Positions 38,328 through 45,832 of a stretch of DNA of 64,000 bases are shown piece after piece. Both the position numbers and the translations under genes were made by a program. The number at the start of each line of letters is the position of its first letter. Positions within the stretch are counted from its first letter, which is position 1. The stretch spans positions 124,001-188,000 of the forward strand of contig WBUG01000001.1 of NCBI GenBank assembly GCA_008933835.1, given 5' to 3'. This DNA comes from Bacteroidota bacterium (GTDB lineage: Bacteria > Bacteroidota > Ignavibacteria > UBA10030 > UBA8401). The notes under the pieces were generated by a model. The model did not search any database, was not told the origin of the DNA, and saw only the letters and a program-made list of their open reading frames with translations.

Positions 38328-39995
38328 ATGTCCAGCACATCTGATACACCGGCCTATGAGAAGGCCAGAAAGCGGTACCAGGAGACCGTCGCCGCGGCCA
38401 AGGTCCGGCCTGCTTCGTTCACGACGGTCAGCGGTGCGCCGGTGAACGTCACTTATTCGCCGGACGACATCGCCGAGACCGATTATCTGTCCGAAATAGG
38501 CTTTCCGGGTGATTTCCCCTATACACGAGGCATCCACCAGACTGGATACCGGGGGAAATTATGGACGATGCGGCAGTTCGCCGGTTTCGGCACGCCCGAA
38601 GACACCAATCAGCGCTTCAAATACCTCCTCGAGCACGGTCAGACCGGTCTCTCCACTGCATTCGACCTTCCCACTCTGATGGGGAGGGACGCTGATGACC
38701 CGCTGTCCGAAGGGGAGGTGGGAATTTGCGGAGTGTCGGTGAGTTCCCTGGCGGACATGGAGATCCTCTTCAAAGGGATACCGTTGGACCAGGTCACCAC
38801 ATCGATGACCATCAACGCGCCCGCGGCGATGATCCTGGCGATGTATATCGCCGTGGCGGAGAAACAGAAGGTCTCCTCCGATAAACTCCGGGGGACGATC
38901 CAGAACGATATCCTGAAGGAGTACATCGCCCAGAAGGAATGGATCTATCCGCCGACCCCGTCCATGCGGATCATCACGGATATGTTCCGTTATTGTTCGA
39001 AAGAACTTCCGTCCTTCAACCCTATCTCCGTGTCCGGCTATCACATACGGGAAGCCGGTTCGACCTCTGTCCAGGAGTTAGCGTTCACCCTGGCGGACGG
39101 GTTCGCGTACATCGAAGCGGGCATCGCCGCCGGATTGGACGTCGATGAGTTCGCTCCCCGCATCTCGTTCTTCTTCAATTCCCACCTCGACTTCTTCGAA
39201 GAAGTGGCGAAGTTCCGGGCAGCCCGGCGCATCTATGCGAAACGGATGCGGGGGAAGTACGGAGCGAAGAATCCCCGTTCTTGGACCCTCCGGTTCCATA
39301 CACAGACGGCGGGATGTACGCTCACGGCGCAGCAGCCGGAGAACAACATCGTCCGGACCGCTCTGCAGGCGCTGGCCGGCGTTCTCGGCGGCACTCAATC
39401 CCTGCACACCAACTCGATGGACGAGACCCTGGCGCTCCCCTCCGACAAGGCGGTGAAGATCGCGCTCCGGACACAGCAGATCATCGCCGATGAGACGGGG
39501 GTCGCCAACGTTGTGGACCCGCTGGGAGGGAGCCATTTCGTGGAAGCGATGACGGACCGGATGGAACAGGAAGCGGAACGGTACTTCGAGCGGATCGACA
39601 TGTTGGGGGGCGTCATCCCGGCCATCGAACAGGGTTTCTTCCAGCGCGAGATCGCCGAAGCCGCGTACCGGTATCAGCGGGAACTCGATACGGGAGTGAA
39701 GACCATCGTCGGCGTGAATCAATACGTTGAGGAGAACGAGACGGTGGACATCCCCATCCTCGCGATCTCGCCGGAAGTGGAACGGGTCCAGCGGAAGCGC
39801 GTCGCGGAATTGCGGCAGAGCCGTCCGCAGCAGGAGGTCAACGATGCCATCGCCCGGCTGAAGGCCGCTGCAACGGACGGTTCCAATCTGATGCCGCCGC
39901 TCCTTGACGCGGCGCGGCGGTATGTGACGCTCGGCGAGATGTGCTCCGCACTCGTGGAGCACTTTGGCGTGTACGAAGAACAGGCGGTGTTCTGA
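38328..39995 (+). CDS. stand-alone acyl-CoA mutase large subunit (isobutyryl/methylmalonyl-CoA mutase type)
   Basis: 555 aa from the ATG at 38328 with GAGGAG 8 nt upstream. It is only the substrate-binding TIM-barrel domain ('[14 protein letters not shown]', '[15 protein letters not shown]', '[16 protein letters not shown]', '[10 protein letters not shown]', '[13 protein letters not shown]'); there is no B12-binding C-terminal domain, so a small subunit must be encoded elsewhere. By-eye alignment puts Tyr74 at the position of Tyr89 of methylmalonyl-CoA mutase but Gln202 at Arg207, the residue that binds the substrate carboxylate. Gln is typical of isobutyryl-CoA mutase, so methylmalonyl-CoA may not be the substrate. 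Co-transcribed with ubiA (1-nt overlap). Confidence 0.9.
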
Positions 39996-40906
39996 TGACG
40001 GCGGCAGAGACTCCGGACGGCGGACCGTCCTATCTTCGATCGCTCGTCGGCCTCTTCCGGCCGCTGCAATGGCTGAAGAACGGGTTCGTCTTCACGCCGC
40101 TGGTGTTCAGCCGGCACCTGCTGGAGTCCGCGTACGTCCTGTATGCCGCGGCCGCGTTCCTCTCGTTCTGTCTCATGTCCAGTGCCGTCTATGTCATGAA
40201 CGACATTCTGGACCGCGAAGCGGACCGGTCGCATCCGCAGAAGCGGAACAGGCCGGTCGCGTCCGGGCGGATCTCACCGTCGGCGGCGGGGATATCGGCG
40301 ATACTGCTTTTCGCCGCGGCGGCCGTCGCTGCGCTCTCCGTGAGTCTTGCGTTCGCCGGAATCATTGCCGGGTACTTCGTCCTGCAGACGGCGTACTCAA
40401 TTCGATTGAAGCATGTGGCGCTGGTGGACATCTTCCTCATCGCCTTCGGTTTCATGCTCCGGGTGATCGGCGGTGCGGTGGCCATTGATGTGGTCATCTC
40501 GCACTGGATCGTCATCACCACCCTTTTCCTGTCGCTCTTCCTCGCCGCCTCCAAACGGCGGAGCGAGCTGGAACTGGTGCAGCGGCTCGGTCTCGCGGAG
40601 ACCCGTCCCGTCCTTCAGCAGTACTCCATCGCGTTCCTCGACTCCATTCTCGTCATCACGGCGACCGGCGTCGCCATCTCGTACTCCCTCTATACGATGG
40701 CGGAGCGGACCATCACGACGTTCGGTTCGGAGCATCTCATCTTCACCACGGTCTTCGTCCTCTTCGGCATCTTCCGCTACCTCTTCCTCGTCCTCCGCCG
40801 CGGGGAAGGGGAGAACCCCACCGCAATCCTCGTCCGCGACGTCCCGATGGGGGTGAACCTCCTTCTCTGGCTCGCCGCTGTCGTCTCGATCATCTACCTT
40901 CGCTGA
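39995..40906 (+). CDS. ubiA: UbiA-family polyprenyl-phosphate phosphoribosyltransferase (DPPR synthase type)
   Basis: 303 aa from the ATG at 39995 (TGATG overlap with the mutase stop), about nine membrane helices. The UbiA metal motif NDxxDxxxD is intact (Asn69, Asp70, Asp73, Asp77), followed by 'HPQKRNRPVASG'. 'RPLQWLKN', 'LKHVALVDIFLIAFGFMLRVIGGAVA' and 'LAASKRRSEL' match the mycobacterial Rv3806c subfamily rather than quinone or heme UbiA enzymes. That enzyme transfers 5-phosphoribose from PRPP to decaprenyl phosphate. Neighbouring dprE1/dprE2 strongly support this role. Confidence 0.88.
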   Translation: MTAAETPDGGPSYLRSLVGLFRPLQWLKNGFVFTPLVFSRHLLESAYVLYAAAAFLSFCLMSSAVYVMNDILDREADRSHPQKRNRPVASGRISPSAAGISAILLFAAAAVAALSVSLAFAGIIAGYFVLQTAYSIRLKHVALVDIFLIAFGFMLRVIGGAVAIDVVISHWIVITTLFLSLFLAASKRRSELELVQRLGLAETRPVLQQYSIAFLDSILVITATGVAISYSLYTMAERTITTFGSEHLIFTTVFVLFGIFRYLFLVLRRGEGENPTAILVRDVPMGVNLLLWLAAVVSIIYLR

Positions 40907-40978: not shown

Positions 40979-42295
40979 ATGAAGGTCACCAACTGGGGGA
41001 ACTATCCGGTCATCGACGCGGTCGTGCATGAACCGCGTACGACGGACGACGTGCGACGCATCGTTGCGGAAGAGCGGGAGCTCATTCCGCGCGGACTCGG
41101 CCGCTGCTACGGCGATTCGTCGCTCAATCACACCATCCTCTCCACCCGTCATCTGGACCATTTCATCGCGTTCGATTCGTCCACCGGTCTGCTCACCTGC
41201 GAAGCGGGGGTCTCGTTCGCCGATATCGTCGAAGCGATGGTGCCGCGCGGATGGTTCCTTCCGGTGACGCCGGGGACGAAGTTCGTGACGGTCGGCGGGG
41301 CGGTGGCGTCGGATGTGCACGGTAAGAACCATCACGTCGCCGGCTCGCTTTCGTCCCACATTGCATCGCTGAAACTGCTGCTCGCTTCCGGCGAGGTCCG
41401 TACCGTGACGCCGGAAGGTGAGCCGGAGCTGTTCTGGGCGACGTGCGGAGGGATGGGACTGACGGGGGTCATCCTTGAAGCGGCGATCCGCATGAAGCGC
41501 ATCGAGACCGCGTACATCCGTCAGCGCATCGTGAAGAACCGGAACATCGACGAGGCGGTCGAGGCGTTCGAACGGAACGCCGAATGGACCTACTCCGTCG
41601 CCTGGATCGATTGTCTGGCGAAAGGGGAGCATCTCGGACGGTCGGCGCTCATCCTCGGAGAGCATGCCACCCAGGCGGAGGTCGGATTCCGGTACCGGGA
41701 CCCTCTGTCGGCGGAGCGCCCACTGTCCGTCGCCGTTCCGTTCATGTTCCCCGGTTTCGCCCTGAACACCCTCACCGTGAAGGCGTTCAATGCGCTGCGG
41801 TACGCGACGTACCGGAACGGCGATTCGTTCGTGGAGTACGAACCGTTCTTCTATCCGCTGGACGGCATCCGTTCCTGGAACCGCATCTACGGCCGGCGGG
41901 GCTTCACGCAATATCAGTTCGTCGTTCCGCGCAACGGTGCCGCAGCGTTGCTGCGCCGCATCCTCTCCCGAATCGCGGAGAGCGGCGAGGGTTCGTTCCT
42001 GGCGGTCCTGAAGCTGTTCGGCCGGCAGGAGGGGATGCTCTCCTTCCCGATGGAAGGGTACACGCTGGCGCTCGACTTTGCGATGACGCCGGAAGCGCTC
42101 CGTCTCTTCTCGGAACTCGACACGCTCGTGACGGAGAACGGAGGACGTCTGTATCTGACGAAGGACGTCCGGATGAACCCTGAGACCTTCGAGCGGGGCT
42201 ACGCGAAGGCGGCGCGCTTCAAGGAGGTGAAACGGTCGGTGGACCCGCACGGGAAGTTCCTCTCGCTCCAGTCACGGAGGGTCGGTATCCTATGA
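40979..42295 (+). CDS. dprE1: decaprenylphosphoryl-beta-D-ribose 2-oxidase homologue
   Basis: 438 aa. FAD-binding PCMH-type fold: 'GLGRCYGDSS', 'PVTPGTKFVTVGGAVASDVHGKNHH' (His114, Lys116), 'LFWATCGGMGLTGVI'. The substrate domain has 'RRGFTQYQFVVP' and 'GRLYLTKDVR' (Lys395, equivalent to mycobacterial Lys418). It oxidises the C2 hydroxyl of polyprenylphosphoryl-ribose, first half of epimerisation to arabinose. In 'LSFPMEGYTLALDF' Ala364 replaces Cys387, the residue that benzothiazinones bind covalently. A T-rich TATTTT lies 8 nt upstream of the ATG with no Shine-Dalgarno. dprE2 overlaps by 4 nt. Confidence 0.92.
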   Translation: MKVTNWGNYPVIDAVVHEPRTTDDVRRIVAEERELIPRGLGRCYGDSSLNHTILSTRHLDHFIAFDSSTGLLTCEAGVSFADIVEAMVPRGWFLPVTPGTKFVTVGGAVASDVHGKNHHVAGSLSSHIASLKLLLASGEVRTVTPEGEPELFWATCGGMGLTGVILEAAIRMKRIETAYIRQRIVKNRNIDEAVEAFERNAEWTYSVAWIDCLAKGEHLGRSALILGEHATQAEVGFRYRDPLSAERPLSVAVPFMFPGFALNTLTVKAFNALRYATYRNGDSFVEYEPFFYPLDGIRSWNRIYGRRGFTQYQFVVPRNGAAALLRRILSRIAESGEGSFLAVLKLFGRQEGMLSFPMEGYTLALDFAMTPEALRLFSELDTLVTENGGRLYLTKDVRMNPETFERGYAKAARFKEVKRSVDPHGKFLSLQSRRVGIL

Positions 42296-43026
42296 GAAGC
42301 GTCCTCTTCATCGGCGCCGGATCGGACATCACGCGCCCCCTCGCGCACCGGTACGCGCGTGCGGGATACGGCATCGTCCTGGCGAGCCGCTCTCTTCCGG
42401 CGCTGGAACGCATGGCGGATGACATCCGCATCCGGTTCAACGTCGACGCTCGGGCGTACGCGTTCGACGTCACCCGTACGGAGATGCACGCATCGTTCTA
42501 CGCCGCACTTCCCGAGCCGCCGGAGATCGTCGTCTGTCTCGCCGGCACGCTGGGAGAACAAGCGCTCTCCGAACAGGATATCGGGGCGGCGCGGCAGGTC
42601 ATCGACGCCAATTTCACCGGCATCGTCTCCATCCTTCACATCGTTGCGGCGGACTTCGAACGGCGGAAGAAGGGTTCCATCGTCGGCGTCAGTTCGGTGG
42701 CGGGGGAGCGGGGCCGGAAAAGCAACTATGTGTACGCGGCGGCGAAGGCGGGATTCACCGCGTTCCTTTCCGGTCTCCGCAACCGGCTCTATCCGTCGCA
42801 CGTGCACGTGCTCACCGTGCATCCCGGTTTCATCCGGACGAAGATGATCGCGGGACGGGAGACGCCCGGCATCATCACCGCATCGCCCGAACAGGTGGCG
42901 AAGGACATCTACGAGGCGCAGCGGGCGGGGAAGGACTTCATCTATTCGCGCTGGTTCTGGAGGTACATCATGCTGCTCTTCACGATGATACCGGAATCGG
43001 TCGCCAAGAAGCTCGATCTCCGATGA
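42292..43026 (+). CDS. dprE2: decaprenylphosphoryl-2-keto-D-erythro-pentose reductase homologue
   Basis: 244 aa short-chain dehydrogenase. Nucleotide-binding 'VLFIGAGSDI' (a variant of TGxxxGIG), Asn107, Ser134/135, Tyr148 and Lys152 ('YAAAK') make the catalytic set. The C-terminal 'SRWFWRYIMLLFTMIPESVAKKL' membrane-associated tail resembles mycobacterial DprE2 (Rv3791). It reduces the 2-keto intermediate from DprE1 with NADH to polyprenylphosphoryl-D-arabinose. The adjacency and 4-nt overlap with dprE1 fit the two-enzyme epimerase. Confidence 0.9.
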   Translation: MRSVLFIGAGSDITRPLAHRYARAGYGIVLASRSLPALERMADDIRIRFNVDARAYAFDVTRTEMHASFYAALPEPPEIVVCLAGTLGEQALSEQDIGAARQVIDANFTGIVSILHIVAADFERRKKGSIVGVSSVAGERGRKSNYVYAAAKAGFTAFLSGLRNRLYPSHVHVLTVHPGFIRTKMIAGRETPGIITASPEQVAKDIYEAQRAGKDFIYSRWFWRYIMLLFTMIPESVAKKLDLR

Positions 43027-43904
43027 CCTCCCGCGCCCGGGCCGAACTCTTCCTCTTGAGCACCACGGTGGTGTGGGGAAGCACGTTCGTCGTCGTGAAG
43101 GCGGGAGCGGACCTCATCTCACCCTCGCTCTTCATCGCGCTCCGGTTCGGCATCGGTGCGCTGCTCTTCGCGCTCCTGCTCGCCGGACAGTACCGTTCCA
43201 TCGGACGGCGCACCGTCCGCCGGGGTGTGCTCCTCGGCGCCATGCTCGGCACCGGCATCATCCTGCAGAACTACGGCATCTACCTCACCACCGCCTCGAA
43301 GTCGGCCTTCATCACCGGCCTGATGGTCATCTTCACTCCCGTCGCCCAATTGGTGCTGGAGCGGCGTGCGCCGCGTCCGGGGAACGTCGTCGGCATCGTC
43401 GTCGTCACCGCCGGACTGTACCTTCTCACCATGCCGGAGGGTTCGGCGTTGAACGCGGGCGATCTCCTCGTCCTCATCTCGGCGGCGGTCTTCGGCGTCT
43501 ACATCGTCTACCTCGACATGTTCTCGAGGGACGAGAAGGTCCTCCATCTTTCGTTCATCCAGGTCACCGTCACCTCGTTCACGGCCGCGATGACCATTCC
43601 CTTTGAATCGGTCCGGTTCATTCCGGCGCCGGGACTCATCGCGTCCCTCCTCTACATGGGCATCTGCGCCACGGTGCTGACCACGTACATCCAGACGAGG
43701 TACCAGAAGGACACCACGCCGACACGGGCGGTCATCATCTTCACGATCGAACCGGTCATCGCTGCGGTGCTCGCCTACTTCGCTCTGGGTGAAGTGCTCG
43801 GAGCGGTCGGGATCGCCGGCGCGGCGGTCATCATCGTCGGCATCCTCATCTCGGAGTTCGGCGACCAGCTGATTCCATGGTCCGGCGAGCGGGAGGGAAT
43901 ATGA
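43023..43904 (+). CDS. EamA/DMT-family membrane transporter
   Basis: 293 aa, ten predicted helices in two EamA repeats ('TTVVWGSTFVVVKAGADLISPS', 'ALRFGIGALLFALLL', 'TIEPVIAAVLAYFALGEVLG'). The family exports metabolites; some DMT relatives (ArnE/ArnF) flip lipid-linked 4-amino-arabinose. Its overlap with dprE2 by ATGA makes a role in flipping polyprenylphosphoryl-arabinose an attractive but unproven idea; amino-acid export is the default alternative. Confidence 0.88.
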   Translation: MTSRARAELFLLSTTVVWGSTFVVVKAGADLISPSLFIALRFGIGALLFALLLAGQYRSIGRRTVRRGVLLGAMLGTGIILQNYGIYLTTASKSAFITGLMVIFTPVAQLVLERRAPRPGNVVGIVVVTAGLYLLTMPEGSALNAGDLLVLISAAVFGVYIVYLDMFSRDEKVLHLSFIQVTVTSFTAAMTIPFESVRFIPAPGLIASLLYMGICATVLTTYIQTRYQKDTTPTRAVIIFTIEPVIAAVLAYFALGEVLGAVGIAGAAVIIVGILISEFGDQLIPWSGEREGI

Positions 43905-44180: not shown

Positions 44181-44657
44181 ATGACACGAATCGGATTCGG
44201 ATATGACGCGCACCGGTTCGCCGCCGGGCGGAAACTGATGCTTGGAGGGGTGGAGATCCCGCATACGCACGGTCTGCTGGGGCATTCGGATGCTGACGTC
44301 CTGCTCCATGCCGTCTGCGACGCGTTGCTCGGCGCGGCGGCGCTGGGGGACATCGGCCGGCATTTCCCCGACACCGACCCCCGATACAAAGGCATATCGA
44401 GTCTGACACTCCTTTCTCACGTGGGTCGACTGGTGCAGGCGAACGGGTACACGATCGGCAACATCGATTCCACCATCGTCATGGAGCATCCTAAGGTGAA
44501 CCCGCACGTCGAAGCGATGCGGCGGGCAATCGGGGAAGCCCTTACGATACCACCGGAAGTCATCTCTATCAAGGCGACAACGAACGAAGGAATGGGATTC
44601 GTCGGAACGGGCGAAGGTGCTGTGGCATATGCGGTTGCGCTTCTCCACACTATCTGA
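44181..44657 (+). CDS. ispF: 2-C-methyl-D-erythritol 2,4-cyclodiphosphate synthase
   Basis: 158 aa from the ATG at 44181. 'GFGYDAHRF' supplies metal ligands Asp9 and His11, 'GHSDADVLLHAVCDALLGA' the third His and 'GRHFPDTD' the substrate loop; 'ATTNEGMGFVGTGEGAVA' is the C-terminal signature. Fifth step of the MEP isoprenoid pathway; trimer. ispD is not adjacent (often fused or next to it). Confidence 0.96.
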   Translation: MTRIGFGYDAHRFAAGRKLMLGGVEIPHTHGLLGHSDADVLLHAVCDALLGAAALGDIGRHFPDTDPRYKGISSLTLLSHVGRLVQANGYTIGNIDSTIVMEHPKVNPHVEAMRRAIGEALTIPPEVISIKATTNEGMGFVGTGEGAVAYAVALLHTI

Positions 44658-44664
44658 TTTCGAT

Positions 44665-45276
44665 ATGATTGAATCGCTCATCGCCCAATTGCAGCAGCTC
44701 GATCCTCTCTGGGTCTATGTTGCTGTCTTTGTCATTGCCTATGTTGAGAACCTGTTTCCGCCCTCCCCCAGCGACCTGATGATCGTAGCAGGTGGATACC
44801 TTGTCGGCATCGGACATATCGGATTCTGGCCCACGTTGATCGTGGCGACCATCGGGAGCACGACAGGATTCATGACGATGTACAAGATCGGCGACTGGTT
44901 CGGCATCCGTATCATCGAAGGAGGGAAGATGAAGTTCCTTCCGCTGGACTCCATCCATAAGGTTGAGGCGTGGTTCCGACACTATGGTTACTGGCTTATC
45001 ATCATCAACCGGTTCCTCTCCGGCACACGTGCGGTGGTCGGTTTCTTCGCCGGCATGTCCGAGGTCCGGTTCGTTCCGACCGCGATTCTCTGTTTCATCA
45101 GTGCCCTCATCTGGAACTGGCTGCTGGTGTATGCGGGAACGCTCCTCGGTGAGAACTGGGAAACGATCGGTTTCTATTTATCCACCTATAGTCAAATCGT
45201 TACGGTGCTGTTGATTACGGGTGCCGTCGTGCTGCTGATTCTATGGAAAAAACGGAAGGGAGGAAACGGTGCTTGA
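44665..45276 (+). CDS. DedA-family membrane protein
   Basis: 203 aa from the ATG at 44665, 7 nt after ispF. DedA/SNARE-associated signature: 'VENLFPPSPSDLMIVAGGYL', 'GSTTGFMTMYKIGDWFG' and 'NRFLSGTRAVVGFFAGMS' (conserved Glu, Asp and Arg residues in re-entrant loops). Members translocate undecaprenyl phosphate or other lipids across the inner membrane. Overlaps the PAP2 gene by 8 nt. Confidence 0.92.
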   Translation: MIESLIAQLQQLDPLWVYVAVFVIAYVENLFPPSPSDLMIVAGGYLVGIGHIGFWPTLIVATIGSTTGFMTMYKIGDWFGIRIIEGGKMKFLPLDSIHKVEAWFRHYGYWLIIINRFLSGTRAVVGFFAGMSEVRFVPTAILCFISALIWNWLLVYAGTLLGENWETIGFYLSTYSQIVTVLLITGAVVLLILWKKRKGGNGA

Positions 45277-45832
45277 CGCCTTGTATTCCATCGATGTTGC
45301 GCTCTTCTTTTTCCTCAACCGCACCATCGCGAATCCTGTCTTCGATATCCTCTTCCCGTTCCTTACCGACCTGAACAAGCAGCCCTTCATCGGCTATGTG
45401 CTCATCGCAGTCATCGGATGGGTCTTATGGAAGGGGGGAGCGAAAGGAAGGATCACCGTCCTGTTGCTGGTCATCGGAGCGGTCATCGGTGACCAGTTGA
45501 GCAGTTCCGTGTTGAAACCGATTTTCGGGCGGATCCGCCCGTGCCGGGCGCTCGAGGGAGTGCGAATGCTGGTGGACTGTGGCAGCGGGCTGTCGTTCCC
45601 ATCGTCCCATGCGGTGAACAACTTCACCGGCGCCGCCATAATCTCGTTCTTCTACCGCCGGCAAACACCCTATTGGATGGCGTTCGCTTCTCTCATGGCG
45701 CTGTCGCGGCCGTATGTTGGAGTACATTATCCGTCGGACATTCTCGGAGGTGCGGTCACCGGAGCGGTCATAGGACTGTCGTTGAGCAGTGCCGCACGCC
45801 TCATCGCACAACGAAGAAATATCATTGTATAG
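45269..45832 (+). CDS. PAP2-family membrane phosphatase
   Basis: 187 aa from a GTG at 45269 with GGGAGG upstream. The phosphatase triad motifs are all present: 'KPIFGRIRPC' (KxxxxxxRP), 'FPSSHAVN' (PSGH-like) and 'SRPYVGVHYPSD' (SRxxxxxHxxxD); five to six helices. It may remove phosphate from undecaprenyl pyrophosphate (PgpB/BcrC type) or from polyprenylphosphoryl-phosphoribose, the job assigned to the PAP2 protein Rv3807c next to mycobacterial ubiA. Confidence 0.9.
   Translation: MLDALYSIDVALFFFLNRTIANPVFDILFPFLTDLNKQPFIGYVLIAVIGWVLWKGGAKGRITVLLLVIGAVIGDQLSSSVLKPIFGRIRPCRALEGVRMLVDCGSGLSFPSSHAVNNFTGAAIISFFYRRQTPYWMAFASLMALSRPYVGVHYPSDILGGAVTGAVIGLSLSSAARLIAQRRNIIV

Follow-up and report, generated by a model that had tools for sequence, protein, structure and literature searches.

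Mycobacterial DprE1 (Rv3790; PDB 4fdn, 4aut and others) is the closest structurally described relative of the protein reported here, with the DprE1 chains of M. smegmatis and M. tuberculosis being its best matches among solved structures in a phmmer search. Replacement of Cys387 of this enzyme has been published as the cause of natural benzothiazinone resistance in M. avium, which has Ala, and in M. aurum, which has Ser (PMC3206020), N. brasiliensis is described as having a second DprE1 with Ser (PMC4608729), and the killing of Corynebacterineae has been linked to blocked recycling of decaprenyl phosphate (PMC3937683). In Gram-negative bacteria with arabinofuranose (Araf) in their glycans, DprE1/DprE2 homologues are reported from three-component systems for lipid-linked Araf, together with a UbiA-type phosphoribosyltransferase and including the system for pilin arabinosylation in P. 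aeruginosa (PMC11127046). One group has judged such lipid-carrier pathways to be poor targets in Gram-negative bacteria, citing their dispensability and the frequent appearance of suppressors (PMC10412643). Lipid-linked Araf pathways of this type have already been described in Gram-negative bacteria, and the locus examined here, in a 64,000-nucleotide stretch of Bacteroidota DNA that we call the window, is most likely a further case.

The oxidase gene and its operon

The features of the locus are collected in Table 1. The product of the dprE1-like gene contains a PF01565 domain and was aligned by phmmer with DprE1 of M. smegmatis (E = 1.8e-91) and M. tuberculosis (E = 3.4e-88), with 39% identity to the latter (168 of 433 aligned residues). 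Against the DprE1 equivalog model NF053785 it scored 452.9 bits, below the cut-off of 500 bits, which was reached by none of the 296 genomes in our phylum search. Since the score lies under this cut-off, we speak of a DprE1-type homologue and do not regard the protein as a certified DprE1. An AlphaFold model built from a 30-sequence alignment had a mean pLDDT of 91.3, and the structural comparison with M. tuberculosis DprE1 that the first-pass annotation had called for could be run with it. The model matched the listed M. tuberculosis DprE1 chains over its full length with Z scores of 47.8–51.2 and an rmsd of 1.6–2.5 Å, compared to Z scores of 33.9–38.5 for the other listed flavin oxidases (34.1–38.5 for alditol oxidases and galactonolactone dehydrogenases). 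As modelled, the window protein has the DprE1 fold, and it shares with the mycobacterial enzyme this full-length fold, the FAD-binding domain and a neighbouring DprE2-like gene.

Table 1. Positions in the window of the dprE1-like gene, its neighbours and the codons discussed in the text.
Feature	Position	Strand	Evidence
ubiA-family decaprenyl-phosphate phosphoribosyltransferase homologue, 303 aa; GTG start at 39941 also open	39995..40906	+	NF008977, PF01040
dprE1-like gene, 438 aa, FAD-dependent polyprenylphosphoryl-ribose 2'-oxidase homologue	40979..42295	+	phmmer, PF01565, NF053785, AlphaFold model
His114 codon (His132 equivalent)	41318..41320	+	alignments
Val207 codon (Ser228 equivalent)	41597..41599	+	alignment; position computed from start 40979
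Phe291 codon (Tyr314 equivalent)	41849..41851	+	alignment; position computed from start 40979
Segment LSFPMEGYTLALDF, residues 354–367	42038..42079	+	located in ORF
Thr362 codon (Asn385 equivalent)	42062..42064	+	alignments
GCG codon of Ala364 (M. tuberculosis Cys387 equivalent)	42068..42070	+	alignments, codon read
Lys395 codon (Lys418 equivalent)	42161..42163	+	alignments
dprE2-like SDR reductase, 244 aa, 4-base overlap with dprE1	42292..43026	+	NF053786, NF005489, PF00106
EamA-family transporter, 4-base overlap with dprE2; candidate flippase	43023..43904	+	PF00892

The genes ubiA, dprE1-like, dprE2-like and EamA follow one another in this order on the same strand. The UbiA homologue scored 263.4 bits against NF008977, above its cut-off of 234, and the DprE2-like protein passed the cut-off of NF005489 and scored 163.3 bits against NF053786, below the cut-off of 250. 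The gene set for lipid-linked D-arabinofuranose (UbiA type, DprE1 and DprE2 homologues) is present, with the DprE1-like and DprE2-like members under their equivalog cut-offs. Of 125 relative loci, 111 carry a DprE2-like gene and 92 a UbiA gene on the same strand at a distance of at most 1.5 kb; loci that end short count as misses, and the named genomes are the best 80 of 584. An EamA gene was found in none of the 125 other loci (tblastn, E 1e-5), of which those of the first phylum-sample set span only about 3–4 kb and those from named genomes belong to the best 80 of 584. A general partnership of EamA with dprE1 was rejected, and the occurrence of EamA as observed is limited to the window's own family. 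Within the window's order a dprE1-like gene was present in 8 of 98 genomes, the window's included, all of them in the window's own family, and EamA follows DprE2 in five of seven same-family loci, the remaining two stretches ending earlier. The EamA protein may replace GtrA as the flippase of the lipid-linked sugar, because a profile search with the GtrA model gave no match in the window's genome. In these two respects, an EamA gene after dprE2 and a genome without a GtrA match, the locus differs from the Gram-negative Araf systems introduced above.

Judged from its sequence, this operon most likely produces lipid-linked D-arabinofuranose as the sugar donor for a glycan of the cell surface, a role proposed because the UbiA and DprE1/DprE2-like genes match the Gram-negative three-component systems. 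After removal of the 5'-phosphate from the lipid-linked sugar by a phosphatase, oxidation at C2 by the DprE1-like flavoenzyme and its subsequent reduction by the DprE2-like SDR would yield polyprenylphosphoryl-D-arabinofuranose. This donor would then be flipped, a step that the neighbouring EamA protein might perform, and would serve a transferase that acts on a surface glycan. With Ala in place of Cys387, the enzyme would stay catalytically competent and lack the thiol that is bonded by nitroso-benzothiazinones. We consider it highly probable that the window protein is an ordinary DprE1-type oxidase of the non-mycobacterial kind, working in an operon for a polyprenyl-phosphate pentofuranose, with Ala364 neutral for catalysis and the covalent thiol absent. 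In this account the homology, the fold of the model, the residue states and the gene order are observations, whereas the substrate, the product, the flippase and the drug insensitivity are inferred from them.

The score below the DprE1 equivalog cut-off and several pocket residues unlike those of the mycobacterial enzyme are also consistent with drift of the protein towards a different FAD-dependent oxidation, of a sugar or an alditol, in place of the oxidation of lipid-linked ribose. We regard such a drift as unlikely, however, as the Z scores to M. tuberculosis DprE1 stand well above those to alditol oxidases and galactonolactone dehydrogenases, the gene lies between the UbiA and DprE2-like genes, and the equivalents of His132, Lys134, Gln336, Lys367 and Lys418 are retained. 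It is very unlikely that the lipid made by the operon carries a pentofuranose other than arabinofuranose, such as another epimer of ribose. A xylofuranose system that starts from the same lipid-linked ribose is known, and the arabinosyltransferase-type models AftA_N, Arabinose_trans and GT87 had no match in the window's genome; xylofuranose systems, however, are reported to be accompanied by one SDR epimerase and Araf systems by DprE1/DprE2 homologues (PMC11127046), and the window locus has the oxidase and reductase pair.

A gene of the DedA family and one for a PAP2 phosphatase adjoin one another (44617–45832) approximately 1.6 kb beyond dprE2 on its downstream side; among NCBIfam models they came closest to polyprenyl-phosphate transporters and phosphatases, with every score far below the cut-off. 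The PAP2 gene (45269–45832) was considered as the missing phosphatase and set aside: undecaprenyl-diphosphatase models matched it weakly and far below their cut-offs, and it was not seen in the 125 relative loci searched (named genomes being the best 80 of 584).

The residue at the Cys387 site

In the phmmer alignment the motif GYTLALDF of the window protein lies opposite GWNICVDF in M. tuberculosis DprE1 and GWNVCVDF in M. smegmatis DprE1, and because this block is free of gaps, Ala364 corresponds to Cys387. Cys387 was not taken as defining DprE1, since it has been described as non-essential for DprE1 activity (PMC6128881). The placement of Ala364 at position 387 had been put forward in the first-pass annotation, together with the retention of His114 and Lys395 as equivalents of M. 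tuberculosis His132 and Lys418, and both were borne out, the multiple alignment agreeing with phmmer on position 387. The range it had given, 42058–42090, holds the second half of the segment and the target codon but not the segment start at 42038. Another cysteine filling the role of residue 387 was ruled out by alignment, as the four cysteines of the window protein are residues 43, 74, 156 and 212, with Cys43, Cys156 and Cys212 opposite Ser59, Val175 and Ala233 in M. tuberculosis DprE1 numbering. Identical in the two enzymes are His132, Lys134, Trp230, Gln336, Lys367 and Lys418.

Cys occupied the site in all five rows from M. tuberculosis, M. smegmatis, Rhodococcus ruber, Nocardia farcinica and Tsukamurella tyrosinosolvens, which we take to be mycolic-acid actinobacteria; these five rows make up the mycolic-acid side of a sample without other actinobacteria. 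Three plasmid rows were assigned to the order Mycobacteriales. Outside the mycolic-acid group, where the window is placed by its nearest relatives, 165 rows were aligned, the window included, and two of them (L135 and L164) stop short of the site. From 584 confirmed relatives in named genomes the best 80 were used, so this set leans towards the window protein. The phylum sample of 296 genomes gave 64 with a strong match (at least 141 bits), the window's genome included; two genomes, G192 and G280, matched in fragments only, the front-part fragment of G192 being left out and G280 entering as two rows. Sixteen plasmid loci were taken from listings of 60 and 30 rows, and one species may occur from two collections among the survey rows.

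The 163 covering rows outside the mycolic-acid group, with the window included and the named-genome rows being the best 80 of 584, had Ala in 149, Thr in 13, Ser in one and Cys in none. All five sets sampled had Ala more often than any other residue: 77 of 80 named genomes (the best 80 of 584 confirmed relatives; Thr in the other three), 25 of 29 rows in the first set of the phylum sample (three Thr, one Ser), 29 of 35 in its remainder (five Thr, one row not covering the site), six of the seven relatives in the window's order besides the window (one row not covering the site) and 11 of 13 non-mycolic-acid plasmid rows (two Thr). In the rows sampled outside mycolic-acid actinobacteria, Ala is the standard residue of the family at the Cys387 site. 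The first-pass annotation had presented Ala364 as a natural residue with the covalent contact lost; the residue difference is real, but with Ala at this frequency, in a survey whose named-genome part is the best 80 of 584, there is no notable loss. The 13 relatives with Thr, again with named-genome rows from the best 80 of 584, were L008, L043, L047, L092, L101, L103, L121, L124, L142, L147, L148, L149 and L152.

In a FastTree tree of 128 rows (named-genome rows the best 80 of 584; order rows and the remainder of the phylum sample excluded), the mycolic-acid rows form one branch and Cys is explained by one change. Support was below 80 at 42 of the 123 inner branches, and the tree was rooted at its midpoint for drawing only, so that it is no proof of which state is older. 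In mycobacteria, Ala or Ser at position 387 does confer benzothiazinone resistance, and Ala364 might on this precedent be a resistance replacement of an ancestral Cys, an adaptation of the lineage to a natural nitro-aromatic DprE1 inhibitor. We give this next to no credence, as Cys was found in 0 of 163 covering rows outside the mycolic-acid group (named genomes the best 80 of 584) and appears on the tree as a single change on the branch to the mycolic-acid rows, with polarity left unproven by the midpoint root. M. avium and M. aurum DprE1 share with the window protein a position 387 without Cys (PMC3206020); those two, known here from publication, are exceptions within the Cys-bearing group, whereas the window protein, with Ala, conforms to what the wider family usually has. 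Ala364 is an ordinary trait of the family rather than an unusual change towards resistance, and because Ala is the family norm, genes of this kind do not belong in lists of resistance variants.

Pocket residues and the action of inhibitors

In addition to Cys387 to Ala, the window protein differs from mycobacterial DprE1 by Ser228 to Val, Tyr314 to Phe and Asn385 to Thr. Fourteen residues are given as contacts of benzothiazinones or benzoxacinones in Table 2 of PMC6128881, and 12 of them are identical in the window protein, the differing ones being Ser228 (Val207) and Asn385 (Thr362). All five mycolic-acid rows have Ser at 228, Tyr at 314 and Asn at 385. Among the covering non-mycolic-acid rows, with named genomes the best 80 of 584, the Ser228 site had Val in 155 of 162 (exceptions six Met and one Ala, with Ser in none), the Tyr314 site had Phe in 156 of 164 (Tyr in two of the eight exceptions), and the Asn385 site had Thr or Ser in 160 of 163 (Asn in two of the three exceptions). 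We lean towards a division of DprE1-type oxidases into two pocket classes, with Ser228/Tyr314/Asn385/Cys387 in mycolic-acid actinobacteria and, nearly always, Val/Phe/Thr or Ser/Ala or Thr in the others. If this division is true, the covalent drug class as a whole, together with a share of the non-covalent class, depends on a lineage-specific, catalytically dispensable pocket, and the pocket difference explains the narrow spectrum at target level. The family-wide pocket difference, with its mycolic-acid side of five rows, is the part of the finding worth keeping. Neither this difference nor work on residue 387 in non-actinobacterial DprE1 was found among literature titles and abstract openings, a search in which subscription papers were mostly outside the scope.

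The loss of the covalent nitro-benzothiazinone contact very likely applies to the window enzyme. The further claim of the first-pass annotation, that Ala gives intrinsic resistance, stands for the covalent bond, which Ala would prevent on a principle already published (PMC3206020), but does not extend to resistance of the organism, which cannot be concluded because it hinges on uptake and on the need for the enzyme. The predicted insensitivity is sound at the level of the enzyme and the claim about the organism is not supported. Non-covalent inhibitors had by implication been left unaffected, and this part may not hold, as the other pocket substitutions, which had been overlooked, bear on such inhibitors. 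For the non-covalent inhibitor TCA1, its hydrogen bond with Ser228 was judged important by the authors, and the effect of TCA1 is lowered by Y314C, with Y314A remaining sensitive (PMC5659129). A non-covalent inhibitor relying on Ser228 may also fail on the window enzyme because of the Val, Thr and Phe found at positions 228, 385 and 314. In the sampled rows the benzothiazinone cysteine is confined, along with other pocket residues, to mycolic-acid actinobacteria, and this confinement offers a simple target-level reason for the narrow benzothiazinone spectrum.

Cys212 of the window protein (codon 41612–41614) sits three residues past the pocket tryptophan and is kept in 137 of 162 covering rows (named-genome rows being the best 80 of 584), with Ala233 at this position in the mycolic-acid enzymes.
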